Source: Spirochaetaceae bacterium
Lineage (GTDB): Bacteria > Spirochaetota > Spirochaetia > DSM-27196 > SLAA01
Direction of reading: 5' to 3'
NCBI GenBank assembly: GCA_003556605.1
Contig: PWQX01000203.1
Span: 1 to 39,200, forward strand
Length of the DNA stretch: 39,200 nucleotides
Shown here one piece after another: positions 10,202-35,765 of this stretch (positions are counted from its first letter, which is position 1; every line of letters starts with the position of its first letter). The notes beneath the pieces were generated by a model, which worked only from the letters and a program-made list of their open reading frames with translations, searched no databases and was not told where the DNA came from. The position numbers and the translations under genes are program-made.

Positions 10202-11566
10202 ATGACCGAAGAGCAAAGAAGGCAATTCGAAGAAGGCCGTAAGCGCCTGCAGCAGCTGGAACGATGGCGTGCCGCGCTCGTCGGCAGGGAGCACGATCTT
10301 GATGAGCAAAGCCGCCGTCGTCTTGCGCAGAAGATTGCGTTAGAGCATGCGCATGTTCAACGAATACTAGAGCCGCTACGTCAGGCTGCGAGCTCGGAGG
10401 AACTGGAAGGGCTCGCCTCCACCACGCGCGACCGAGAAACACCGGTAGGCGATAGCGACCGCAAACCACACAGCGGTGGTTGGTACGAGCGGGACGACCA
10501 ACCCTCTCGGCGGAAACACAGAGTGAGGCGTGGACGCAGAGCTTTATTGACGGCTGTGGCTGCGGTTGTGCTTGTAGTCGTGATCGGCGGCTACGTTGCC
10601 TCACTGCGGCTCGACAGTCACGCTGAGGCGCTGGTCGATGAGCAACTGCGCGAGGTCATCGAACAGTCGGGGCTCGGCGAGCTCATCAGCTACAGTCGTG
10701 TAGAGGTAAACTCGCTGTTCGGGCGAGTGCGATTCTTCGATGTTTCGCTTGTCTCGGCAAACCCGCGCTCGCAAGCGCATGCAGACGAGCTTCGTCTGCA
10801 GATGTCGCCGAATGATCTGGTGCGGATTGCGCGCAACCGTGAGACTGCAGTCGTCTCAGGAGTCCGAGTTTCCGTGATCGGGGGTTCCGTTGCCGACTCT
10901 CGACGCGCTGCCGATATCGAGTTCAAAAAGGTCGGGGTAGACCTTACGGGCAACTTTCCGCTTGAATCCATTGACCGCCCCGAAGCAGTGCGCTTTACCA
11001 AAGTTCATTTTGTCGTCGAAGGCGTGGGCTTCAGCGACGCCGAAAGCGGCTTCAGCGGCAGGATCGAGGAAGCCGGCTATACCGTCTCGGGTGATTTCAC
11101 CGTTGCCGACCTCAACGGAGGTTCGCAGCGATTACTCGCCCGCTTGGAGTCGCTGGATGCGCGAATCGGGGGTGCGAGCATCGGCCTTAGCGGTATGCCG
11201 GCTCGAGAGCTCGAGGAGTTTCAGGTGATGCTTGGCGGGTACGGATGGATTGCGGATTTGGATAACTGGTCGATCGAGGACAGCCGCATGCGGATGCTCA
11301 TCGAGCCGGACATTCTCAGCGTTGATTCGTTTCGGTTTGTCTCGCCGTTGCTGAGCGTCGACGGCACGTTGGAGATAGCGCTTGACACCGATCTGGAACC
11401 AGCCGCCGTCCGCGGTGAGCTGCAGGTCAACGAGATACACCACGATATTCGTGCGTTTTCTCGCCTGTACTTCAGCATGGCCGGTTACAGCATCCCGTCC
11501 GACGGCCCCTTTACGGTTGGGTTTGTGTTCGAGGAGCATTCCGGCGCGCATGTTGAAATACTCTGA
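10202..11566 (+). CDS. Inner-membrane-anchored protein with large extracytoplasmic part, unknown function, possibly C-terminally truncated
   Basis: 454 residues. The first ~110 are charged and helical, with basic clusters RRKHRVRRGRR immediately before one transmembrane helix (LLTAVAAVVLVVVIGGYVAS, about residues 115-134). The rest is beta-rich with repeated short strands such as VEVNSLFGRVRFFDVSLV and ADELRLQMSPNDLVRIAR. This resembles AsmA/DUF945-like or lipid-transfer-type proteins, but I do not assign a family. GGGGGAG at 10192-10198 stands close to the ATG. The frame ends abruptly after HSGAHVEIL. A coiled-coil-like C-terminal scrap, LEDKIRELSHMVAELRQQSS, follows directly in another frame and stops at 11651. 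The original protein may therefore have been longer and broken here. Confidence 0.6.
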   Translation: MTEEQRRQFEEGRKRLQQLERWRAALVGREHDLDEQSRRRLAQKIALEHAHVQRILEPLRQAASSEELEGLASTTRDRETPVGDSDRKPHSGGWYERDDQPSRRKHRVRRGRRALLTAVAAVVLVVVIGGYVASLRLDSHAEALVDEQLREVIEQSGLGELISYSRVEVNSLFGRVRFFDVSLVSANPRSQAHADELRLQMSPNDLVRIARNRETAVVSGVRVSVIGGSVADSRRAADIEFKKVGVDLTGNFPLESIDRPEAVRFTKVHFVVEGVGFSDAESGFSGRIEEAGYTVSGDFTVADLNGGSQRLLARLESLDARIGGASIGLSGMPARELEEFQVMLGGYGWIADLDNWSIEDSRMRMLIEPDILSVDSFRFVSPLLSVDGTLEIALDTDLEPAAVRGELQVNEIHHDIRAFSRLYFSMAGYSIPSDGPFTVGFVFEEHSGAHVEIL

Positions 11567-11756
11567 AGGTACGACCGGCTACCCTCGAGGACAAAATCCG
11601 CGAGCTCAGCCACATGGTTGCAGAGCTGAGACAGCAGTCATCGCGACTCTAAGGTCCAAGCCGCGCCGGGAACCTACTGTGAGCGTATTGTAGTTCACAC
11701 TACGCGCCCGCCACGTGTTGTGGATCTCACCGCAGTGTGGTAATGCGCGCGCTCGG

Positions 11757-12641
11757 TCACTCACCCAATCGCTGCGGCTTACGGCCACGGACCGTTACGC
11801 TTGCGATCTGCGATTTACCGGCGTGATACGCATCGATGGTCGCAAGATCGAACGCCTTGCTCAAGATCTCACGCGGCGGGGCTATGCGGTGCTCGGCGGC
11901 AATCTCGATCTCTACGAAACCGGCTTCGCCGAGGAGCTCAAGATAGAGTTCACGCTCGATCGCGCCGCCGATGCACCCCACATAGGCCTCAAGCGACTCG
12001 CGCACACCCGGAAGAAACGGACCGTCGACCACCACGTCCGACACGCAGAAGCGGCCGCCGGGTCTGATGATGCGGAACATCTCTTCGAAAGCCCTGCGCT
12101 TGTCGGGCACCAAGTTGAGCACGCAGTTGCTGATCACGATATCGGCGATATCGCCGGCAAGCGGCATCGCCTCGATCTCACCGTGGACGAACTCCACATT
12201 ATCAAAGCCGCGCTCGGCGGCGATTGAGCGCGCCGAGGCAATCATTTCATCGGTGAAGTCGAGCCCGATAACGCGGCCCTCGGCGCCCACCGCAGCACGC
12301 GCTACAAACGCGTCATTGCCCGCGCCCGATCCGAGATCAACAACGGTCTCACCGGCAGCAAGAGCCGCAAGTCGCGTAGGAATACCGCATCCAAGCCCGA
12401 GATCGGCCGCCACTTCATGCCCTTCGATACCCGCGTAGCTTTCGCCCACCATGCTGTACAGCTGAGAGATTCCAGCGAGCGAGACCTGTTCTCCGCTGCC
12501 GCAGCCGCTAGGCCCCTGTCCAACCGCGGGCCGTGTTGCGGCGATCGCGGCATACTTGTCGCGCACCGCGCGCCTAAGCTCATCGCCCTTGCCGGCCTCG
12601 GCCGCTGCGGTTTCGGCGCCTTTGTTCATACCGTTTTTCAT
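11757..12641 (-). CDS. arsM: Arsenite S-adenosylmethionine methyltransferase
   Basis: Methylates As(III) to mono-, di- and trimethyl arsenicals using SAM. ATG at 12641 is preferred to the adjacent in-frame GTG at 12644; AGGAG lies 6-10 bases upstream. The SAM-binding core is clear: VVDLGSGAGNDAFVA, then VIGLDFTDEMI and VEFVHGEIEAMPL. The arsenic-binding cysteines of the family are all visible: one in LGLGCGIPT, one in ISNCVLNLVPDK, one in AYVGCIGGAIE, plus an N-terminal Cys in GPSGCGSGEQ. It is the last gene of the operon, 67 bases after the aminopeptidase stop. Its presence with ArsR, ArsD and ArsA fixes the operon's subject as arsenic. A C-terminal extension (GRKPQRLGE) is ordinary. Confidence 0.93.
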   Translation of the reverse strand: MKNGMNKGAETAAAEAGKGDELRRAVRDKYAAIAATRPAVGQGPSGCGSGEQVSLAGISQLYSMVGESYAGIEGHEVAADLGLGCGIPTRLAALAAGETVVDLGSGAGNDAFVARAAVGAEGRVIGLDFTDEMIASARSIAAERGFDNVEFVHGEIEAMPLAGDIADIVISNCVLNLVPDKRRAFEEMFRIIRPGGRFCVSDVVVDGPFLPGVRESLEAYVGCIGGAIERELYLELLGEAGFVEIEIAAEHRIAPPREILSKAFDLATIDAYHAGKSQIASVTVRGRKPQRLGE

Positions 12642-12708
12642 CACGGTTCTCCTTCGTTTAACCTTCGTCCACCTGGTTCAATGCCTCAGAGTTCAAATCT
12701 GCGTCTCT

Positions 12709-13920
12709 TTATGGAGTGAGGCTCCAAAGCCCCTTACTTAACAACCCAACCTCGCTGCCGTCGGCGTTGACACCCCACACGTCGAGGCGGTCGGACCCCA
12801 CCATGAAATCAATATGTACGGTGCTGATATTGCCTCCCGAGGCGCGGAACTCCTCCTCGGAAAGCTCTTCCGCCCCATCAAGGCAGAAGCGATATGCCCT
12901 GCCGAGCGCGAGATGGCACGACGAGTTCCCGTCGAACAGCGTGTTGTAGTAGGGGCGACGCAGGCGCGCAACCGGCGAGTCCTGCGGGACGAGCGCAACC
13001 TCACCTAGACGACGGGCACCAGGGTCGCTTTCAACGATTCGCTCGAGCAACTCGCGATGGTGATCAGCCGCGTGCACCTCGCGAACCTCTCCGCCCTCGA
13101 TCCGCAACGTGAGCTCATTGATCGTGCTCCCGCTCACCACGAGCGGGCCGGTTGAGGTTACCAGGCCCTCAACAGCATCACAGTCGGGCAAGGTAAAGAC
13201 CTCTTCAATCGGGATATCGGCGATGAAAGGGATGTCTGAGGTGGTTTGGAACCCCGGGTGCTGCCACCGGTGCCGCGCCGGAAGCGCAATCCGAAGATCG
13301 GTTCCGGGCCCTACAAAACACAGCGCTTCAAACCGGTGTTCGTTCAGTACGTTGCAACGCTTTTCCAGCTCCTTGCGATGCGCTCGCCAGCGCTCGGGGA
13401 AATCCTCATGTCGTACGCGCGAGACCACGAAAATGTCTTCCCACAGCCGCCTCAGACCACGCCCAACAGACGGTTCATCGGGATATACCTTGCGCGCCCA
13501 ACTCTCGGTAGGAACCGTCGCGATAGACCAATTCACTTCGTTTCGAATGAAAAAACTCCACACGCGCTGCAGGTGCTCGTTCTCGAGTGTGAGCGCACGC
13601 GCCAGCGTTGCCGCAGGCGTGTGGTCAAATACGCCCGCGCAGGTACAGTCAAAGAACAGAAACGCATGCCCTTCGGCTGCCGCGCGTTCCATGATCTCGA
13701 CTTGCCACTGCGGTTGAGCTTCCAGCACCTCCGGTGAGGTATGCGTCAGTCGTGTGAGCTCGAGCCGGTCGTCCTGCCGGAACACCTCAACGTAGACCGC
13801 GCCGGCCTTGTAGGCCTCCTCGGCCGAGACACGTACGAACCACGCTGCGTCGACGGGAGCCTTCCAGATGATAAAGCGCTGGCCCGGCTGGATGTTCACC
13901 GCGATGCGGGCCCCCCCCAC
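12709..13920 (-). CDS. M29-family (thermophilic-type) metalloaminopeptidase, N-terminus apparently lost
   Basis: A leucyl/aminopeptidase T-like M29 enzyme, normally a two-metal aminopeptidase of about 400-410 residues. Family hallmarks are EEAYKAGAVYVEVFRQDD near the start, the central ADIPIEEVFTLPDCDAVEG metal-ligand region, HAADHHRELLERI, and the end IDFMVGSDRLDVWGV. The first residues read GARIAVNIQPGQR, whereas members usually begin with about 15 more residues. The only start is GTG at 13920, inside a G8 run (plus-strand C8 at 13911-13918), overlapping the end of the flavoprotein gene in another frame. The arrangement looks like a deletion junction joining the middle of a coaBC gene to the beginning of this gene. 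Whether the product is active is uncertain. Confidence 0.78.
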   Translation of the reverse strand: MGGARIAVNIQPGQRFIIWKAPVDAAWFVRVSAEEAYKAGAVYVEVFRQDDRLELTRLTHTSPEVLEAQPQWQVEIMERAAAEGHAFLFFDCTCAGVFDHTPAATLARALTLENEHLQRVWSFFIRNEVNWSIATVPTESWARKVYPDEPSVGRGLRRLWEDIFVVSRVRHEDFPERWRAHRKELEKRCNVLNEHRFEALCFVGPGTDLRIALPARHRWQHPGFQTTSDIPFIADIPIEEVFTLPDCDAVEGLVTSTGPLVVSGSTINELTLRIEGGEVREVHAADHHRELLERIVESDPGARRLGEVALVPQDSPVARLRRPYYNTLFDGNSSCHLALGRAYRFCLDGAEELSEEEFRASGGNISTVHIDFMVGSDRLDVWGVNADGSEVGLLSKGLWSLTP

Positions 13921-14402
13921 CCTTCACCGCCGCAGGCCATCTCGCCGTGCTCCGGCTCAACGAACTCGTAGCCGAAACGCTTCAGTTTCGCGACGTTGTC
14001 CTGCACCACCGGGTTCCGCCACATGCCTTCATTCATCGCCGGGCAGATGACAACCGGCTGCGTGCACGCGGTGATCGTGGTGGTGAGCATGTCGTCGGCA
14101 ATCCCTGAAGCGATCTTGCCGATGAAGTTCGCGGTAGCCGGTGCAACGATGGCGATATCCGAGAAGCGCGCGAGCGAGATATGCTCCACGCGGCTACTAT
14201 CGGCGTCGATAAACATGCCGACCGTAACTTTGTGGCGCGAAATTGTCTCGAGCGTGAGTGGCGTGATGAAGCGTGTCGCCGCCTCGGTCATGATGACGCG
14301 AACGTCAACCAGCTGGGAGCGCAGCAGGCCGATGAAGTCGGCCATTTGGTACGCCGCGATCCCTCCGGTGACGCCGAGCAGTATCTTCTTACCGGCCAGC
14401 AT
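13896..14402 (-). CDS. CoaC-type flavoprotein (phosphopantothenoylcysteine decarboxylase domain), CoaB half missing
   Basis: An HFCD-family FMN protein. It starts at 14402 (MLAGKKILLGVTGGIAAY), 9 bases after the YlbF stop. Catalytic-type residues are kept: His in VEHISLARFSD, the flavin-loop APATANFIGKIASGIADDM, and PAMNEGMWRNPVVQ. Normal bifunctional CoaBC continues after ACGxxGxGRL for about 210 residues of phosphopantothenoylcysteine ligase. Here the frame runs ACGGEGWGGP and stops within five codons, exactly at the G8 run. The ligase half is gone, so either this is a stand-alone decarboxylase-type flavoenzyme or a broken coaBC. If this were the cell's only coaBC it would be lethal, which favours a second copy or an assembly join. 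Confidence 0.75.
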   Translation of the reverse strand: MLAGKKILLGVTGGIAAYQMADFIGLLRSQLVDVRVIMTEAATRFITPLTLETISRHKVTVGMFIDADSSRVEHISLARFSDIAIVAPATANFIGKIASGIADDMLTTTITACTQPVVICPAMNEGMWRNPVVQDNVAKLKRFGYEFVEPEHGEMACGGEGWGGPASR

Positions 14403-14411
14403 AAGCGAGTA

Positions 14412-14777
14412 TCAGCAGGCCGCCGCCGGGGCTGCGGTAGCGGCGAAATCAAACCCCAGCGTATTGCTCAACGCCGCGTTACAATCACCGAGCACCGCTT
14501 GCACGTCGTTCTGCGCTTGAATCATTGCAGTGGTTGTGGGGTGCGCGTTCACCTTCTGTTGCAGCGCGCGTAGCTCGTTGATGTCTTCTTGCGTGAGCGT
14601 CCCGTCGGCTTGCTTCTGCTGAAACTCCTCCACAAGCGCGCCGTATGTGCTGCGAAGCTCGTGGAGCTCAGCGTCGTTTTCAAACGCTCCGCGCGCCGTG
14701 CGAAACTGTGCTATCGTGTCGTTGTTCTGCAGCGACTCTATGAACTGATTCGCTGCTTCTTGTAGTTTGGCATCCAT
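14412..14777 (-). CDS. YlbF/YmcA-family (Com_YlbF) protein with terminal cysteine, second copy
   Basis: A 121-residue all-helical protein of the YlbF/YmcA (RicF/RicA) family. Family wording is visible in the motif LRALQQKVNAHPTTTAMIQA and in QNDVQAVLGDCNAALS. In Bacillus these proteins form a complex with an iron-sulfur cluster that influences RNA maturation and competence. Here it sits in an ars operon, 18 bases after its paralogue, with GGAG in its leader. It ends GFDFAATAAPAAAC: a Cys at the very end and one internal Cys. The terminal cysteine corresponds to the CC tail of the paralogue, suggesting a metal or metalloid-binding role in this operon. That role is inference only. Confidence 0.75.
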   Translation of the reverse strand: MDAKLQEAANQFIESLQNNDTIAQFRTARGAFENDAELHELRSTYGALVEEFQQKQADGTLTQEDINELRALQQKVNAHPTTTAMIQAQNDVQAVLGDCNAALSNTLGFDFAATAAPAAAC

Positions 14778-14795
14778 AATTCTCGTTCTCCTCGT

Positions 14796-15188
14796 CTAGC
14801 AGCACCCGCCGGCGGGCTTGGTGAGCTCCGCAAAATCGAACCCAAGACGCTCGGTCATGTACTCGTTGAGCTCCTTGAGCGTCGCGATGAGCTGCTCCTG
14901 TGCCTTAAACAGGCGTGACAACGTGGGGTTGTTTATTACCTGCTGCTCGAGTTGTTGGAGCTCCTGTTGCTGATTCGCCGCGTCCGCTCCTCCCCAGCCG
15001 CCGGCCATCTGCGCGAACTGCTGAGCCTGCTGGAACTGCTGCAGCAGTTGGCGTGCTTGCTCGTCGCTTCGCAGCGCCGAACTCGCTTGCTCGAACTCGC
15101 GATATGCGGCTGTCTCGGCGATTGCTCCGGCAAGCTCGCGCGCAGCCGCGGTCATATCTTGTGTCGTGTCGGTTGATGTCGACATCAT
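14796..15188 (-). CDS. YlbF/YmcA-family protein with C-terminal GGCC tail, first copy
   Basis: A 130-residue helical protein, paralogous to the following gene: both share the pattern LQxLEQQVxxxPTxxxxxxAQ and the terminus LGFDFA. It begins ATGATG at 15188, overlapping the previous gene's stop as ATGA. Gln/Ala-rich central helices (residues about 40-85) are typical of the family. It ends KPAGGCC with two adjacent cysteines at the extreme C-terminus and no other Cys. Vicinal C-terminal thiols are well suited to bind As(III) or a cluster. A role as an arsenic or electron-transfer adaptor is inferred from context only. Confidence 0.75.
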   Translation of the reverse strand: MMSTSTDTTQDMTAAARELAGAIAETAAYREFEQASSALRSDEQARQLLQQFQQAQQFAQMAGGWGGADAANQQQELQQLEQQVINNPTLSRLFKAQEQLIATLKELNEYMTERLGFDFAELTKPAGGCC

Positions 15189-15604
15189 TGCTCTCCTTGC
15201 GTTTGTTGTGTGTTGTTTGCGCCGCCGGGGCGTTCGCCGCCTGAGCGCTCCGCGCCGTCCGCGTGTGCCCCGCCCGAGCGTTCCGCCGCGAGTGCCGCCT
15301 CAAGCGCTTCGCGGATCTTGCGCTCAGACAGCTTGCCGCCCGACTGCAGCAGCTCACCGTCGAGCATGACGATCGGCGCAGCGGCCTCGCCGCTTTGTAC
15401 CATCGCCATCACCTCGGGATGCTCGAAGAACTGTTTGCTGAACAGATGCACGGTCTCAAAGCGCACCGCATCGTCGAGGCGAGGCTTCAGTCGCCCGGCG
15501 AGCGCCTTCACGGCGTTCTCCCAGGTGTTCTCGCCGGCGCACTCGCTCAACGGCGGTGCGAATACGCGCACAACGTGTTCGGTTGCTTTGCGCCCGTCCG
15601 CCAT
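15185..15604 (-). CDS. ArsD/thioredoxin-fold-like small protein with low-complexity tail
   Basis: 139 residues when started at the ATG 15604 (MADGRKATEHVV), two bases after the zinc-ribbon gene's stop; in-frame codons further upstream would overlap that gene. The sequence runs beta-alpha-beta: VVRVFAPPLSECAG, then VRFETVHLFSKQFFEHPEV and AAPIVMLDGELLQSGGKLS. The last part matches the ArsD/thioredoxin layout (PVxxVDGxVVxxG). Only one Cys (SEC) stands where ArsD carries its CC pair, so it is not a conventional metallochaperone. The last ~35 residues are Gly/Ala/Gln-rich and probably disordered. It overlaps the next gene by four bases. It may be a divergent ArsD paralogue or a thiol-transfer partner. 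Confidence 0.6.
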   Translation of the reverse strand: MADGRKATEHVVRVFAPPLSECAGENTWENAVKALAGRLKPRLDDAVRFETVHLFSKQFFEHPEVMAMVQSGEAAAPIVMLDGELLQSGGKLSERKIREALEAALAAERSGGAHADGAERSGGERPGGANNTQQTQGEQ

Positions 15605-15606
15605 AG

Positions 15607-15828
15607 CTAACAGCACCCCGCTCCCATGCCGGGTCCGCACATCGACCCCGGATCAAATCCTCCTCCCGAGCCGGTGCTCGAGAGAATGCCGACCGCGCCG
15701 AACACCTGTGCGGTTTCTTTCGAACCGCACTCTGGGCACTCCGGCTCGATGCCGGCCGCCTTCTCGGCGACCGTAGCGATTACATCGAACACCTGTTCGC
15801 AGTCCTTACAGCGGTACTCGTAGGTCAA
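15607..15828 (-). CDS. FmdB-type zinc-ribbon protein with cysteine-rich tail
   Basis: A 73-residue protein. The start is TTG at 15828 (TYEYRCKDC follows), with GGGAGGG about 8 bases upstream. The zinc ribbon is CKDC (residues 7 and 10) and CPEC (31 and 34), as in FmdB/putative regulatory proteins of the FmdB family. After a Gly/Ser linker the tail reads MCGPGMGAGCC: three further cysteines, the last two vicinal and terminal. The linker plus Cys tail is unusual compared with plain FmdB proteins and echoes the tails of the YlbF proteins downstream. It lies 34 bases after arsA. A metalloid-binding role is inferred. Confidence 0.75.
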   Translation of the reverse strand: MTYEYRCKDCEQVFDVIATVAEKAAGIEPECPECGSKETAQVFGAVGILSSTGSGGGFDPGSMCGPGMGAGCC

Positions 15829-15862
15829 CGTCTATCCCTCCCTTGCTTCCTTCAATCTTCCT

Positions 15863-17788
15863 TTAGCTTTTCGCCCCTTGCGCGGCTGCTGCGTGCGAGG
15901 CCGGCTGGGCAACGGCAAACAACGCATCAGCGGCACGCTCAATCATCGAAAGACCGGTAATCTCGGTCTCGAACAGCGGCATAACCGTCACCGGCAGCTG
16001 AAAGCGCCGATTGATCTCCCCGAGGTACTTCTCCTGCATCTTCTTGCGGTTCTTGAAGTACTCGTTTGTGCAGTACTCGCTCTGCAACACCTGATTGGCG
16101 ACCACAAACTGCGTCTCGATTCCCGCCGCCCGCAGGTCCACCATCGCACGGTACGCCTCGATCACCGGCGTCGACTCGGGGTACACCACAAACGCAAACG
16201 CGCTGCGCTCGGGGTCCTTCATTTGCGCGATAATGCGGTCAAAGCGTGCCTGGGTCTCGCTTTTGACATCGGAGCTTTCGCCCGTGGTGGCAACCATCAT
16301 GCCGACCTGGTCTGCGTAATCGAACGGCAACTCGAGCAGCCGCAGCGTGTGGCCGGTGGGGGCGGTATCGAACACCACGATATCGTACTCATCGCGCTCT
16401 ACGTACCACATGAACTTATCGAACGCGGCCATCTCCTCGGTACAGGGTGACTCAAGCTCCTCGCGCACTGCGATAAGCATATCCTCGGAGTATTTCTGTT
16501 TCGCATCCTCAAGGATGCGTGCCTTGTACTCCTCAACCGCTTTCTCTTGGTCGATCATTACCGCGTCTAGGTTCGGCGCCCCTTCAATTGCAGTGATCGA
16601 GTCGCCGACTCGCTGCTCGAGCACCTCGCCGATATGCGAGGCCGGGTCGGTGGTGAGAAGCAGCGTCTTGAAACCGAGCCGCCCGAGCGCAAACGCCGTC
16701 GCGCACGATACCGTGGTCTTGCCGACGCCGCCTTTGCCGGTGAAGAACACCGCCTTGGTGCTTCCGGCAACCGGCCTTATTGAGTTCACAAGCGACTCAG
16801 AGTCCTGCTCAACGTATTCCGCCGCAAGCTCTTGCGCCGAACGCTTCAGGCTGAACTGCGCCGGAGCCTCCGCGGCGTCCGAAAACAGGTCACGGGCAAC
16901 GTGCTTCAGCCCTTCGAGCCCTTTGATCTCACCGTCGCGCTGATACATGCGCTTCACCGGCACCGTGAACTCGGTTTCAATGGTTTCGAGGTGGCGCTTT
17001 TGCATCTCGTAGCGGCTCTGAAAGAACGGATGCTCGCAAACATCTTGCGGCAGAACGCCGTTGACAATCAAGCGCGAGTTCTCAACACCGATCTCGGCGA
17101 GCTCGGCCGAAGAGCGCTTCGTTTCGTAGATGGAGGTGGCTTCCGGCTGCAGCACAAAGGTGAACTCGGTGCGCTCCGGGTCGCCGAGCAGGCGCGTGGC
17201 CTCGTCGTACTTCACCTTGTTCTCTTGAATCGAGGCTACCGGGCCGATGCAGGTATTGCCGCTTCCCTGCGCGCTTTCTTCTATATGCTTGCTCCAGTCA
17301 ACCGGAAGCTCGAGCAACCGCAGCGTGTGCCCGGTCGGCGCGGTGTCGAAGATCACCACGTCGTAGCCCGCGCCGTCCTGTGCGTTCTGTCCGTTCCGTC
17401 CGTTCTGTTCGTCGTCGGCGGTCATGAAGTCGACGAACCGGTCGAACGACGCGATCTCGGTGGTGCACGGTGAGTTGAACTGCTCTTCCATCACCTTGAT
17501 GACGCTTTCCGGCATCACCGCGCGCATCGGCGCAAGGATGCGCTCGCGATACTCCTCGGTTGCCTTGTCGGGGTCTATCTCCATACCCCAGAGATTCTCA
17601 ACGCCGAGCGGACGGATGTTGTGGCCGATCTCGGTCTCGAATACGTCGGAGAGATTTGAGGCGGGGTCGGTTGTGACGATGAGCGTACGCTTGCCCTGCT
17701 CAGCGTTGTGTACCGCGGTAGCGCATGCCATCGTGGTCTTGCCGACGCCGCCTTTACCTGAGAAGAAAATGTATTGTGTTTGATTCAT
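15863..17788 (-). CDS. arsA: ArsA arsenite-stimulated double-domain ATPase
   Basis: 641 residues with two homologous halves. Each half carries a deviant Walker A: SGKGGVGKTTM (residues 10-20) and TGKGGVGKTTV (350-360). Each also has TTDPAS (39-44, 379-384) and the signature DTAPTGHTLRLLELP (148-162, 474-488). Metalloid-site cysteines are conserved in both halves: Cys108 and Cys251 in A1, Cys449 and Cys573 in A2, in contexts SPCTTE/SPCTEE and DVCEHPFF/EYCTNEYF. Residues 125-142 of A1 hold an Asn/Gly/Gln-rich insert. In known systems ArsA powers the ArsB permease, receiving As(III) from ArsD. No ArsB or Acr3 gene is present in this window, so it either works with a distant pump or in a pump-free scheme. 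It starts at 17788 with GGGAG upstream. Confidence 0.96.
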   Translation of the reverse strand: MNQTQYIFFSGKGGVGKTTMACATAVHNAEQGKRTLIVTTDPASNLSDVFETEIGHNIRPLGVENLWGMEIDPDKATEEYRERILAPMRAVMPESVIKVMEEQFNSPCTTEIASFDRFVDFMTADDEQNGRNGQNAQDGAGYDVVIFDTAPTGHTLRLLELPVDWSKHIEESAQGSGNTCIGPVASIQENKVKYDEATRLLGDPERTEFTFVLQPEATSIYETKRSSAELAEIGVENSRLIVNGVLPQDVCEHPFFQSRYEMQKRHLETIETEFTVPVKRMYQRDGEIKGLEGLKHVARDLFSDAAEAPAQFSLKRSAQELAAEYVEQDSESLVNSIRPVAGSTKAVFFTGKGGVGKTTVSCATAFALGRLGFKTLLLTTDPASHIGEVLEQRVGDSITAIEGAPNLDAVMIDQEKAVEEYKARILEDAKQKYSEDMLIAVREELESPCTEEMAAFDKFMWYVERDEYDIVVFDTAPTGHTLRLLELPFDYADQVGMMVATTGESSDVKSETQARFDRIIAQMKDPERSAFAFVVYPESTPVIEAYRAMVDLRAAGIETQFVVANQVLQSEYCTNEYFKNRKKMQEKYLGEINRRFQLPVTVMPLFETEITGLSMIERAADALFAVAQPASHAAAAQGAKS

Positions 17789-17839
17789 TGTATGCTCCCG
17801 TGTGTGCTCTTAGCGGTAATTGCGTTTGCGCGGTCGGGG

Positions 17840-18181
17840 TTATACCGTTGCGGTTTCGGGCGACTGCGCGTAGGTGAGAAGCTCCTTGAAGGTCGGAAAC
17901 TCGCGCTGCTTCACCACTTTTCCGTTTACCGCGGTAACCGGCAACACATCGGTGCCCTGCTCCTGCAGCAGCGCCAATACCGCGGGGTTCTCCATGAACT
18001 TCTGCCCCTGCTGCTGTAAGAGGTAGCGGTGCACCTCAACACCGTGCTCGTTCTTGAGCTTCAAAGCAGCCTCGTTTACATCCAGCAAGGCTGGGTCTAT
18101 CGCAGGACCACACAGGCCGCCGGGGCAGCACATCGGTGGGTCGAATATCTCAATTCGGACGTTCGTATCGGTATCGCTCAT
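17840..18181 (-). CDS. arsD: ArsD arsenic metallochaperone
   Basis: 113 residues. It delivers As(III) to ArsA and has weak repressor activity in model systems. The vicinal cysteines are at 18-19 with a third at 24 (MCCPGGLCG), the C12/C13/C18 set of the classical protein. The thioredoxin-like fold is recognisable in FMENPAVLALLQEQG and VLPVTAVNGKVVKQREFPT. The additional C-terminal CC pairs present in some ArsD proteins are absent. It lies between arsR (65 bases) and arsA (51 bases) on the same strand. Confidence 0.95.
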   Translation of the reverse strand: MSDTDTNVRIEIFDPPMCCPGGLCGPAIDPALLDVNEAALKLKNEHGVEVHRYLLQQQGQKFMENPAVLALLQEQGTDVLPVTAVNGKVVKQREFPTFKELLTYAQSPETATV

Positions 18182-18246
18182 AATCTCACTCCCTTTCCCT
18201 TGGCTGCAATAGCCATAGCTCGACCAGTCGTAGGCGACTCGGTTGA

Positions 18247-18669
18247 TTACTCCGTCTTACTTCTTCCGAGCGTGTGGTCGCTCGGTTTGTCATCGCTAGG
18301 AACAACGCCTATCACGCACTTAGTCCCCGAACGCAGTGCGAGTCTTAATTCCAAGCCCCTCAGGTCCTTCTCGGTTTCCTCGGTTGGAAGCACCGTGCGC
18401 AGAAAGTCCCACAACTGCACAGCAAACGAATCGCCGGTTTCAAGACTGTGATAAGCCCAGGTCCCCTCACGATTCACCGTGACCAAGTGCGCACTCTTGA
18501 GTACGCTCAAATGGCGTGATATCTGATACTGCGGCAAATGCAGCGCGTCCATCAGCTCGCAGACACACAGGGGCTCGCTACTGCGCAACATCAGATTCAC
18601 GATCCGCAACCGGGTTTCGTCGGCGATTGCCTTGAATACTTCGCAAGCCCTCTGCATCTCACGCTCCAT
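18247..18669 (-). CDS. arsR: ArsR-family metalloregulator
   Basis: 140-residue winged-helix repressor. The metal site motif PLCVCEL (Cys35, Cys37) lies at the start of the DNA-binding region and is the As(III) sensor motif. The recognition helix region is QYQISRHLSVLKSAHLVTV, followed by a wing with GTWAYHSL. A further Cys (GTKCVIGVV) near the C-terminus occurs in many anaerobe ArsR proteins. It starts at ATG 18669, 7 bases from a perfect inverted repeat, so autoregulation and control of the whole downstream operon are expected. Confidence 0.95.
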   Translation of the reverse strand: MEREMQRACEVFKAIADETRLRIVNLMLRSSEPLCVCELMDALHLPQYQISRHLSVLKSAHLVTVNREGTWAYHSLETGDSFAVQLWDFLRTVLPTEETEKDLRGLELRLALRSGTKCVIGVVPSDDKPSDHTLGRSKTE

Positions 18670-18676
18670 ATGTTAA

Positions 18677-18694
18677 TATGCGCTACTACGCATA
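18677..18694 (-). promoter_or_regulatory. Probable ArsR operator upstream of arsR
   Basis: Perfect inverted repeat TATGCG-N6-CGCATA, immediately upstream of the arsR start codon and in AT-rich DNA. Dyads of this size and position are typical for ArsR/SmtB repressors. It is the only such perfect dyad seen in the arsR upstream region. Confidence 0.6.
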
Positions 18695-19142
18695 CAATAT
18701 ATCCGTTTTGCGCGCCGCCGTCAACGCCCGGAGGTGGTCTTTTCTGTTCAATTCTGTAGACCGCACCGCAGGTGGTGCCGATTAACCCCACCTCGTAATT
18801 GTTTTAGCCCGGCATAGCCGGTTCCCAGCCAGACTCGCGGCTGTCTGTAATACGGATTCAGCCGAGCTGGCGGGCGGGAACGCTTTTCAAGGTCCGGATC
18901 ACCGCGTATGTCTTTCCGCGTCGATCGAGAAGTTCTAAGCCGAAGGGGGTAGGCGTCGCCCTGACGGGCACGGAAATAAGGATCCGGAAGACTCCGCCGG
19001 CACATCGGCCCAAAAGCGGTAACTGAACAACCTCCTCTCGAAAGGATAGCCGCCCGAGCGGCCGAAACTGATGGACGTAGGCTTACGCGTGCTGGAGTGA
19101 TAAGGTGGTAAAGCGCGTAAGCATGTCTTATAATAAAATCAT
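18695..19142. other. Intergenic region between arsR and the coiled-coil gene
   Basis: About 450 bases separate the divergent genes. The arsR side carries AT-rich sequence (ATACAATATATCCG), likely the arsR promoter. The middle shows no gene, tRNA or hairpin that I can support. The plus side ends in a strong TATAAT before the next gene. Confidence 0.5.
19106..19134 (+). promoter_or_regulatory. Promoter-like TATAAT directly before the coiled-coil gene
   Basis: A perfect TATAAT at 19129-19134 lies only 8 bases before the ATG at 19143. The element 17 bases upstream (TGGTAA) is a weak -35. Initiation would fall almost at the start codon, giving a leaderless or nearly leaderless mRNA, which fits the absence of a Shine-Dalgarno sequence. 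Confidence 0.45.
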
Positions 19143-28906: not shown

Positions 28907-30292
28907 CTAGTCTTCTACGTCTATGACCACCGCGTCGGGCCAGCGTTGAAGTGCGCTTTCGAGCAACGAAGGGCGAACCACCGCGACCGCGACACCGCGC
29001 GAGAGATTATCGACGGCTTCCAGGCCCGCGATAAAGCCGGTGGCTCGATGGAGCTCGAGTAACCCCAGCTCGTCGATGACCAGAATATCGAACTCGTCTT
29101 TCCCGGCACGCCTTAGAACGTCGTTACCCCAGTTGAGTGTGTCGTCGAGAAAGCGCCAGCGCTCGGTTGTGTTTCCTCCGTCTGTCCCACCTCGCCGCAC
29201 ATTTGCGAGCCTTTGCCGCTCACCGGAAGCGAGGTCGACAAGGTCTATCGCAACCTTGTGGTCTTCAACAAACACCGCTTCAGAGTGCACGCCACCCACG
29301 GATAGCCCGCGCGGCCGCGCCGCCTTCACCAGACGATCGCACCAGCGGCTCTTCCCCGACCCCCGTGGTCCGGTCACGATAACTCGTTGAGGGTGGGCCA
29401 CGGAAGCTTGCATCAAGCGGGCCAGCGTTGAGTCAGGTTGAAGGAGCGCCTCAGGCTCGACCGCCACCGTCTTAACCTCGTCGGGAACCACATCAACACG
29501 TCGCGGTAGAACCGCTCGCGGTACCCGCCGCCCATCTACAACTTTGGATATCACCTCGATCGGCATCGAGTAGGCTTCGCCCAAAATAGTCTCGGTCATG
29601 GTGCTCTCGACAGGACCGGCCGACAGGATAGATCCGTGCCGCATCAGTAGAACTCCGCCGGCAAACATCAGCGCGCTATTTGGGCTGTGCGATGTTACGA
29701 CGAACGCCAGACCGTGTTCGCGCGCCAAATCATGGACGACCTCCAACACCCGAAGCTGATTGCGTGGATCAAGATGCGCATCGGGTTCGTCCATCAAGAG
29801 CACGTCGCAGCGTTGGGTGAGACCACGCGCCACCATAACCATCCGGCGCTCCCCACCACTCAGCTGTGCGTATCGGCGATTGTGAAAATCGGAAAGCCCA
29901 ACGCGATCGAGCGACTCAAGCGCAATCTCGCGGTCGATGCGAGCAGGTGCGGCAAACTGTGAGAGATGAGGTGCGCGCCCCATCAACACCACATCGAGCA
30001 CAGTGTAGCCGAACACCGCCTCGTGCATCTGTGGGATCATACCGATCCGCTTAGCCCGTTCGGTCGGACTCATCGATTCCAGGTCAACACCGTCTATCTC
30101 GATGCGTCCAGTATCGGCCTGCAGTACACCGCAGAGACACGAGAGCAAACTGGTCTTCCCGCCGCCGTTATGGCCGAGAATGAATACCACCTCACCGGCC
30201 TCCACGGTGAGCGAGACGTCCTTAACGACCGGAACCGCGGGGTTATACCCGAAGGTTAGGTTCCGGGCTTCGAGCTTCACAGTGCTCACCAT
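28907..30292 (-). CDS. ABC importer ATPase (FecE/BtuD class) fused to a THEP1-like NTPase
   Basis: 461 residues from ATG 30292 (MVSTVKLEARNL), which overlaps the permease stop by seven bases. The first ~255 residues are a complete metal-chelate-type ABC ATPase: Walker A GHNGGGKTS, Q-loop IPQMHEAVFGY, signature LSGGERRM, Walker B VLLMDEPDAHLD. After a linker, residues about 295-461 form a second P-loop domain with Walker A VTGPRGSGKS (about 306-315), GGVHSEAV, and Walker B ILVIDELGLLEL. This pattern belongs to THEP1/NTPase_1 nucleoside-triphosphatases. The fusion is unusual; the added domain may regulate transport or process a nucleotide-linked ligand. Both ATP sites look intact. Confidence 0.85.
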   Translation of the reverse strand: MVSTVKLEARNLTFGYNPAVPVVKDVSLTVEAGEVVFILGHNGGGKTSLLSCLCGVLQADTGRIEIDGVDLESMSPTERAKRIGMIPQMHEAVFGYTVLDVVLMGRAPHLSQFAAPARIDREIALESLDRVGLSDFHNRRYAQLSGGERRMVMVARGLTQRCDVLLMDEPDAHLDPRNQLRVLEVVHDLAREHGLAFVVTSHSPNSALMFAGGVLLMRHGSILSAGPVESTMTETILGEAYSMPIEVISKVVDGRRVPRAVLPRRVDVVPDEVKTVAVEPEALLQPDSTLARLMQASVAHPQRVIVTGPRGSGKSRWCDRLVKAARPRGLSVGGVHSEAVFVEDHKVAIDLVDLASGERQRLANVRRGGTDGGNTTERWRFLDDTLNWGNDVLRRAGKDEFDILVIDELGLLELHRATGFIAGLEAVDNLSRGVAVAVVRPSLLESALQRWPDAVVIDVED

Positions 30293-31365
30293 CCAACTCC
30301 TTGGCGTCGGAGCAGCAGCACCAGCAGCGGAACACCGATGATGCCGGTTAGCACACCCAGCGGTAGCTCGGCGCTCAAGACCGAGCGCGAAACGGTGTCG
30401 ATTGCAACCAGAAACGCCGCGCCGAGTGCAGTCGCCATCGGCACCAACCGCGAATGGTCCGGGCCGACCAACATTCGCGCGGCGTGCGGCGTTACGAGCC
30501 CGACCCACCCGATGACCCCACCAACCGATACCGCTGCGGCGGCAACCAAGGTGGCGACCGCGATCAACACGAGCTTCATTCGCTCCGGGTTCATCCCAAG
30601 CGCCCGTGCCTCGGCGTCTCCCAGCGACAAGACGTTGAGCCTCCAGCGTACCAACACGAATACGGCGATTCCGACGGAAGTAACCGCGAGCAAAAAGGGA
30701 ATTCGTTCCCAGCTTACTCCGGTGAGGCCACCCATGAGCCAGAATGTAATAGCCGGAAGAGTGTCGAGGGGATCGGCAAGATACTTGAGTAGCGAAGTCA
30801 GCGAAGCAAAGAACGAGCCGACAAGTATGCCCATCAAGGTGAGCACGATCTTCGGAGCCGATGCGTGACGCCGCGCTCCCAAAAATGCAATAGCCACCGC
30901 CAACAAGCCGAAGCCGAACGCCCCAAGCTGTATCATTGCCGCACCGCCGCCAAGGAGCATCACGACAGCCGCGCCGAAACCGGCACCGGCGGTGACACCC
31001 AGCAGGCCGGAGTCGACAAGCGGATTGGTGAAGATGCCTTGGAAAACGGTTCCGGTTACACCGAGGCCCGCCCCGATCGCCAATGCAGCGAGGACGCGGG
31101 GCAAGCGCACGTACAACACTAACCGCCGTGGGATCTCGGGCACATCAATTGCCGCGTCCGGTATGACCGGCGAGAGCAGCGAACGTACAACATCAAAAAC
31201 GCTGATTTGATACACGCCGAGCGCCAATGCCACAACGCCAAGCGCCAGCGGCGAGAGCAGCGTCGCCGCTGCCAAAATGTTCTGCACGGGGCCGGGCCCT
31301 ATCGGCGCCCGATTGCGCCCGTCACCCACCGTGCCGACGGCTGAGTTGGCTCGCTTGCTCTTCAT
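30286..31365 (-). CDS. FecCD/BtuC-family ABC permease
   Basis: 359 residues with about nine to ten transmembrane segments. Family hallmarks are RLPRVLAALAIGAGLGVTG, FQGIFTNPLVDSGLLGV, RALGMNPERMK, and the region GWVGLVTPHAARMLVGPDH that contacts the ATPase. ATG at 31365 comes three bases after the binding-protein stop. It transports iron-siderophore, cobalamin, or metal-oxyanion ligands in other species; the ligand here cannot be read from the permease. Confidence 0.92.
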   Translation of the reverse strand: MKSKRANSAVGTVGDGRNRAPIGPGPVQNILAAATLLSPLALGVVALALGVYQISVFDVVRSLLSPVIPDAAIDVPEIPRRLVLYVRLPRVLAALAIGAGLGVTGTVFQGIFTNPLVDSGLLGVTAGAGFGAAVVMLLGGGAAMIQLGAFGFGLLAVAIAFLGARRHASAPKIVLTLMGILVGSFFASLTSLLKYLADPLDTLPAITFWLMGGLTGVSWERIPFLLAVTSVGIAVFVLVRWRLNVLSLGDAEARALGMNPERMKLVLIAVATLVAAAAVSVGGVIGWVGLVTPHAARMLVGPDHSRLVPMATALGAAFLVAIDTVSRSVLSAELPLGVLTGIIGVPLLVLLLRRQGVGW

Positions 31366-35162: not shown

Positions 35163-35765
35163 TCAAGCCTCCACTCTTTCCGGCTCATAAGATTGGATGG
35201 CAAGTCGATCAGCGTTTTCGGATTGGTCGGTTTTCCATTCGTCCAGGTTATACACGTTGGTATCAGCCCCAAGGTTCTCGTAGTCCGAACGAACAGAAGT
35301 CGACAGCGTTTCAACCGCGGAAAGAAATCGAAGGACCGGTCGAATCTGCATGTTTGTCAAGAATACAAGCCGTTCCGTATTTCGAAGCTCCTGCCTTATT
35401 TGGCGCAGCATTTGGCCGACAAGAGGAGGATACCCGCTTTCTAGCCGAGTAGTGATGTATTGATTAAGCGACACACCTTGCTCTTGTGCTTCATAGGCGA
35501 GTCGCCGATGCGTCTCTGGCGGAATCCGTAACGACAAATGCCCCGAGTACTTACGGCCGGATAGGGGCTTCGGAATCGGCTCTTCATCTTCGTGCAAGAT
35601 CTCCAGGGAGTCCGAAACCGTTTCCCGGATCGCGCCAAGGGCTTCCTCCATCGTATCTCCAAATGAACTAAGGAGAGGAAACTCGAGGCACGTACCCACA
35701 TAAGCCTGGTCCTCTTCCGACCAGTTAACTCGGTAGGTGTAATTCTCCGCGATCTCGCTATTCAC
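35163..35765 (-). CDS. hicB: HicB-family antitoxin with long C-terminal extension
   Basis: 200 residues. Residues about 8-60 are the partial RNase-H-like HicB domain (YTYRVNWSEEDQAYVGTCLE, then GDTMEEALGAIRETV). Residues about 68-108 form a ribbon-helix-helix DNA-binding domain (LSLRIPPETHRRLAYEAQEQ). About 95 more residues follow, helical and acidic, which usual HicB proteins of 110-150 residues lack. It overlaps hicA by eight bases, the normal toxin-first order. It should neutralise HicA and autoregulate the cassette. Confidence 0.88.
   Translation of the reverse strand: MNSEIAENYTYRVNWSEEDQAYVGTCLEFPLLSSFGDTMEEALGAIRETVSDSLEILHEDEEPIPKPLSGRKYSGHLSLRIPPETHRRLAYEAQEQGVSLNQYITTRLESGYPPLVGQMLRQIRQELRNTERLVFLTNMQIRPVLRFLSAVETLSTSVRSDYENLGADTNVYNLDEWKTDQSENADRLAIQSYEPERVEA

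Follow-up and report, generated by a model that had tools for sequence, protein, structure and literature searches.

How does an ArsA ATPase work where no arsenite pump is encoded beside it? The question dates from knockouts in Halobacterium NRC-1, where the arsA cluster confers arsenite and antimonite resistance and its loss sensitises the cells, whereas arsB plays no role and its loss does not; an unknown transporter was proposed (PMC3600143). A 39,200-nucleotide stretch of Spirochaetaceae DNA (the window) raises it for a bacterium. The window is the complete contig C20 (PWQX01000203.1) of a metagenome-assembled genome (MAG; 296 contigs, 3.88 Mb), and it carries an arsenic operon in which arsR, arsD and arsA are followed by seven accessory-type genes. 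All ten were confirmed where the original prediction had placed them, on the minus strand. That prediction also held that this ArsA lacks a pump and may pass As(III) to the methyltransferase ArsM instead. Our analysis points elsewhere. We give about an even chance to an As(III)/Sb(III) resistance and efflux system that would be divided between two operons under one ArsR-type operator, with YlbF-family proteins as a relay among ArsD, ArsA and an ArsP-family permease encoded on another contig.

The operon begins with arsR at 18669 and ends with arsM at 11757, and families were assigned by Pfam and NCBIfam profile matches. In order of transcription, its features are:

18696..18724, minus strand: sigma-70-like promoter TTGACG-17-TATATT, directly upstream of arsR, the only such site found in 11500-18900
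18677..18694, minus strand: candidate ArsR-type operator TATGCGTAGTAGCGCATA, a TATGC-N8-GCATA palindrome between the promoter and arsR
18247..18669, minus strand: arsR, ArsR/SmtB repressor (NF033788, 83.9 bits, cut-off 55)
17840..18181, minus strand: arsD, metallochaperone (NF033727, 107.4 bits, cut-off 90)
15863..17788, minus strand: arsA, two-domain ATPase (PF02374, 505.6 bits; NF041417 ArsA_halo, 684 bits, cut-off 800)
15607..15828, minus strand: FmdB-type zinc ribbon (TIGR02605, 48.7 bits), tail MCGPGMGAGCC
15185..15640, minus strand: ArsD2, ArsD-like; true start probably the ATG at 15604
14796..15188, minus strand: YlbF1, HcsL-like (PF06133, 67.4 bits, cut-off 23.9), ends PAGGCC
14412..14777, minus strand: YlbF2 (PF06133, 66.8 bits, cut-off 23.9), ends AAAC
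13896..14402, minus strand: CoaC/HFCD-type flavoprotein decarboxylase (PF02441, 113.6 bits)
12709..13920, minus strand: M29 aminopeptidase (PF02073, 384 bits)
11757..12644, minus strand: arsM, arsenite methyltransferase (NF008823, 296.7 bits, cut-off 263)

The successive gaps from arsR to arsM were 65, 51, 34 and about 2 nt, an ATGA overlap, 18 and 9 nt, an overlap and 64 nt, and the single promoter-like site ahead of arsR fits one transcript for all ten genes. The core proteins retained their motifs: CVC in ArsR, an intact MCCPGGLC with CC-x4-C in ArsD and, in the alignment motif columns of ArsA, both P-loops and the equivalents of Cys113, Cys172 and Cys422. These three cysteines bind arsenite in the Escherichia coli enzyme.

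The predicted absence of ArsB, Acr3 and ArsP from the operon and its surroundings held for the whole contig. Even at E<=1, neither ArsB nor Acr3 matched anything in the 3.88 Mb genome, and the ArsP_1 profile gave one strong match (255 bits), on contig C147. There, a three-gene operon encodes ArsR2 (42% identity with ArsR of the window operon), a thioredoxin-like protein of 80 residues that matched the 'MTH895/ArsE family' (TIGR00412, 90.6 bits), and an ArsP-family permease. The permease has the ArsP cluster 1 motifs HV(L/I)xCLxPAFFIAG and C(S/T)C, present as EHVLLCLIPAFFIAG and VCSCTVLPL.

When the upstream regions of both operons were compared, the shared pattern TATGN6AGCGCATA was matched exactly at two genome positions and no others. 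The looser pattern TATGYN8GCATA likewise occurred in exactly two places in 3.88 Mb, directly ahead of arsR and directly ahead of arsR2, and the pattern in reversed reading gave eight genome matches. The C147 operon also has a promoter, TTGACG-17-TATTAT (read by eye), laid out like that of the window. In the relatives, related operators precede most arsR/arsD/arsA/FmdB operons, including FmdB in genome G005, and they precede arsR-trx-permease (trx, the thioredoxin-like gene) in the genome under study (G000) and in G002, G003 and G004. The gene order permease, trx, arsR and sugar genes is shared by G002 and G003, indicating that C147 belongs to this genus. These patterns make a strong case for a regulatory link between the C20 and C147 operons. 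The notion of an ArsA without a pump thus fails at the level of the genome: the genome's one other copy of the operator has an ArsP-family permease behind it, the kind of finding that the original prediction had named as evidence against itself, with ArsP in place of ArsB or Acr3. Because ArsB and Acr3 are absent, this permease is the best candidate, and a likely one, for the exporter that serves this ArsA.

On contig C39 (locus L038, 1068-2631), shorter PF03773 permease matches neighbour a second ArsR-like gene, one whose tail is Cys-rich, and they could represent one more transporter of this genome under ArsR control.

To see how the genes are arranged elsewhere, 395 genomes of the class were surveyed, of which 13 carry this type of ArsA (at least 67% identity over the matched part). 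The arrangement is not unique to this contig, and related clusters occur in spirochaete relatives. ArsP and/or Acr3 is encoded in or beside the cluster in 8 of the 13 genomes. G015 has trx, ArsP, arsD, arsA, ArsD2, YlbF1 and YlbF2 consecutively; in G005, arsRDA is divergent from FmdB-YlbF1-YlbF2-flavoprotein-M29, which is followed by ArsP-trx; and most of these pieces are also present in G006, spread over contigs, with M29 beside trx-ArsP. The remaining cases are ArsP-arsR-arsD in G008, both ArsP and Acr3 in G017 and G020, Acr3 in G023 and an Acr3-like protein below the cut-off in G030. A partnership of ArsA with ArsP has been proposed before, from operons and coevolution (PMC2963123). Across the class, ArsP accompanied this ArsA in 11 of 13 genomes vs 103 of the other 382 (p=4e-5), an association that we dropped, as it vanishes within the order. 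It is position and operator, not plain co-occurrence, that carry the weight for the ArsA-ArsP link there.

In the spirochaete clusters, the ars-type YlbF pair and an in-cluster Acr3 were mutually exclusive (6:0 vs 0:4, p=0.005, from a small sample and with no phylogenetic correction). The pair was counted in G000, G001, G004-G006 and G015, where for G001 the evidence is a fragment lying at the end of a contig and in G004 arsA is off the contig; Acr3 was counted in G017, G020, G023 and G030. This exclusion would fit the YlbF pair as a coupling factor for ArsP. Haloarchaea, unlike the spirochaetes, combine the homologous Hcs pair with Acr3.

Several observations weigh against an ArsA-ArsP efflux system. 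The MAG is 4.4% contaminated and split over its 296 contigs, and two further PF03773 loci, weak or half-length, lie on C39 and C128. Of the named NCBIfam members, those nearest to the permease, a Cu/Zn exporter and SaoE, match it far below cut-off, and organoarsenicals are the exported substrates of characterised ArsP (PMC4435449); with so broad a family, As(III) is only a putative substrate of this permease. ArsP is also near-universal in the order, where it was found in 10 of 11 genomes with this ArsA vs 27 of 35 others (Fisher p=0.42). In addition, the gene arrangements are highly variable, ArsD-ArsA also occurs without the ars-type YlbF pair, and the haloarchaeal pNRC100 cluster has no adjoining pump.

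The substrate range of characterised ArsP bears directly on one alternative, a division of labour in which ArsM makes methylarsenite (MAs(III)) and ArsP exports it without ArsA, while ArsD, ArsA and the YlbF proteins make up a chaperone system of their own that holds As(III) or is driven by ATP. The cluster 1 motif and CSC of the C147 permease and the presence of ArsM in the same regulon are in line with it. However, G015 has an ArsP-type permease beside arsA and no ArsM, which argues that methylarsenite is not the sole substrate, and we regard this alternative as rather unlikely.

Where does this ArsA come from? In a maximum-likelihood tree, spirochaete ArsA formed one group (support 100/98), its sister was haloarchaeal ArsA (99/96) and canonical bacterial ArsA stood separately (100/100), with the warning that long branches meet, which leaves the depth of the relation uncertain. 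Identity to haloarchaeal ArsA was 43-47%, and the score against the haloarchaeal family NF041417 was below its cut-off, as listed above. The haloarchaeal operons read arsD-arsA-hcsL-hcsS, with Acr3 beside them in H. lacusprofundi and Halococcus, and without Acr3 there in pNRC100, Halocatena and Natronorubrum. In the window, FmdB and ArsD2 come between arsD-arsA and the two small YlbF proteins, of which YlbF1 ends in CC and YlbF2 in one C, compared with the two CC-tailed small proteins expected after arsD-arsA in the haloarchaeal type. YlbF1 scored below the HcsL cut-off (NF041416, 75.6 vs 140 bits), yet its full-length profile homology was clear: it aligned end to end with HcsL (hhalign 99.5%). 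The C-terminal part of YlbF2 aligned with HcsS (95.1%), and YlbF2 also aligned with HcsL (98.5%). Because its ArsA is sister to haloarchaeal ArsA and its YlbF pair matches HcsL/HcsS, the locus is, as judged from sequence, a bacterial and enlarged version of the Halobacterium arsDA-hcsL-hcsS system, real and conserved but variable. In H. lacusprofundi, an M20-type metallohydrolase gene follows hcsS (L041, 8489-9748), roughly where the M29 peptidase stands in spirochaetes.

The predicted YlbF1 model had as its best PDB match the Bacillus subtilis RicA-RicF complex (6prk), along with other YlbF structures. The RicA/RicF C-terminal cysteines and a third protein jointly ligate a cluster (PMC6751060). 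The ars-linked spirochaete pairs end in -PAGGCC and in one terminal C, and every complete ars-linked copy has cysteine at its extreme C-terminus. The original prediction of cysteine-tailed adaptors gains from this homology to both HcsL/HcsS and RicA/RicF, which makes such a role more plausible. A bolder proposal, to which we assign a low probability, places a single As(III) site between the two YlbF proteins, made up of their three tail thiols (CC + C) and handing arsenite to ArsA or receiving it from there; ArsD-ArsA and the YlbF pair would then be an old pump-agnostic machine of haloarchaea and spirochaetes, combined with ArsP, with Acr3 or with no adjacent pump.

The same match to RicA-RicF could instead mean that the pair is a Ric-like regulator, of RNA processing or Fe-S sensing, carried along outside arsenic handling, and similar cysteine-tailed YlbF pairs do occur in the order beside unrelated metabolic genes. 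We consider this improbable: the ars-linked pairs form a distinct group (>200 bits on model A3 vs about 120 or less), every complete copy keeps its terminal cysteines, and the pair adjoins arsA, ArsD2 or FmdB in spirochaetes and, as HcsL/HcsS, arsA in haloarchaea. The other spirochaete pairs mostly have different, Cys-Gly tails. Tandem Cys-tailed pairs away from ars genes were found at loci L019, L022, L024, L026, L030 and others, and such pairs adjoin genes for a pyruvate dehydrogenase-type E2, malic enzyme and a DHODB-like oxidoreductase.

A contig scan with the YlbF1 alignment returned three close Spirochaetaceae MAGs only, and its peptide patterns were too strict to serve as a census. Searched against plasmids, YlbF1 gave a single weak match, in Halococcus, over hcsL/hcsS. 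Our literature search found no work linking YlbF with arsA and no mention of halo-CC-star, and the arsEFG literature held nothing bearing on these genes.

The CC tail of FmdB is retained in G001 and G005. ArsD2 adopts an ArsD/thioredoxin fold and contains one cysteine (hhalign to ArsD 94.4%), and its AlphaFold model (pLDDT 76) matched thioredoxins and ArsD (3mwh/3kgk) in the PDB. It shares the fold class of ArsD and falls outside the ArsD family, with 14.7 vs 90 bits for NF033727, E=0.012 (below cut-off) for PF06953, a single cysteine and no CC-x4-C. The flavoprotein, which retains PAMNEGMW and MACG, has a 79% relative in G005 only, and M29 is kept beside the flavoprotein in G005 as it is beside trx-ArsP in G006. 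The closest relative of arsM (83%) lies in G004 at another locus, after an ArsR-like gene; among the relatives examined, arsM adjoins arsA only in the window and is a separate locus elsewhere. The flavoprotein, M29 and the position of arsM are lineage-specific add-ons.

The flavoprotein is an extra CoaC-type paralogue. That it might be the sole CoaC was rejected on finding a full-length CoaBC-like protein on C261 (L136, 2845-4131), which has PAMHEPMY vs the classical PAMNEGMW of the ars flavoprotein and is without the MACG stretch. We also considered decarboxylation of the C-terminal cysteines of FmdB, YlbF1 and YlbF2 by this HFCD flavoprotein, through EpiD-like chemistry. The idea is attractive but weak, as the tails of G015 and the haloarchaea occur with no such enzyme adjoining.

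We consider it very unlikely that ArsA instead powers a hand-over of As(III) from ArsD, by way of the cysteine-tailed proteins, to ArsM, with methylation and no pump as the means of detoxification, and such a supply of ArsM is unlikely to be what is conserved. In favour of this model, arsM ends the apparent ten-gene transcript and in pNRC100 also lies just downstream of arsD-arsA-hcsL-hcsS. Yet the scattered location of arsM in the relatives, the lack of any ArsM at E<=1e-30 in G015 (full ArsD-ArsA-ArsD2-YlbF1-YlbF2 core, 95% complete) and in G023 (this ArsA, 90% complete), the candidate permease under the same operator, and the sensitivity of the Halobacterium arsADRC knockout to arsenite and antimonite vs that of the arsM knockout to arsenite only (PMC3600143) all stand against the model.

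The two-operon efflux system would work as follows. Without As(III), ArsR bound at TATGYN8GCATA would cover the starts of both the arsA operon on C20 and arsR2-trx-permease on C147, and binding of As(III) would open both. ArsD and ArsD2 would gather cytosolic As(III), and around ArsA the YlbF1 and YlbF2 proteins, with their CC and C tails, and the CC-tailed FmdB would provide thiol relays or a scaffold. With both ATPase sites and its three arsenic-ligand cysteines, ArsA would then use ATP to load a membrane exporter, the best candidate being the ArsP-family permease. ArsM would methylate As(III) in parallel and may give the permease a second substrate, MAs(III). The roles of the flavoprotein and the M29 peptidase are likewise putative.

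Elsewhere in the window, an open reading frame at 28907-30508 (minus strand) encodes an ABC-transporter ATPase (PF00005) in one chain with an NTPase_1/THEP1-like domain (PF03266) and adjoins a permease and a solute-binding protein that resemble a BtuF/BtuC-type importer. A HicB-family antitoxin-like protein (PF05534) is encoded at 35163-35765 (minus strand), next to a protein with no family assignment.

The locus connects the archaeal system to bacteria and identifies HcsL and HcsS as YlbF/Ric-family proteins, which brings in a structural precedent for metal ligation by C-terminal cysteines. With one concrete candidate exporter named within one operator-defined regulon, the question of ArsA action without ArsB becomes testable with a handful of genes.

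Among known systems, the haloarchaeal arsD-arsA-hcsL-hcsS operon (arsADRC/arsR2M of NRC-1 pNRC100; NF041415-NF041417) resembles the window operon in its sister ArsA, cysteine tails and leading arsD-arsA; HcsL corresponds to YlbF1 and HcsS to the C-terminal part of YlbF2, arsM is close by in pNRC100, and the pump is often non-adjacent. It differs in that HcsS has only about 62 residues, the operons seen are without FmdB, ArsD2, flavoprotein and M29, and the window proteins score below the NCBIfam cut-offs. Canonical bacterial arsRDA(B/acr3) operons share the arsR-arsD-arsA order and the same ArsA cysteines and P-loops, but their ArsA belongs to the other clade, and the window operon is without a pump and has extra thiol proteins. 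Bacillus RicA/RicF (YmcA/YlbF) are alike in fold, in being two paralogues and in C-terminal cysteines that ligate a metal centre with a third protein, whereas the window pair is linked to arsA and has its cysteines as the very last residues (-GGCC, -C). Finally, the C147 operon matches ArsP cluster 1 permeases with an ArsE-type thioredoxin in its motifs and in its arsR and thioredoxin-like gene, but its permease appears to be paired with a two-domain ArsA by operator rather than by operon.

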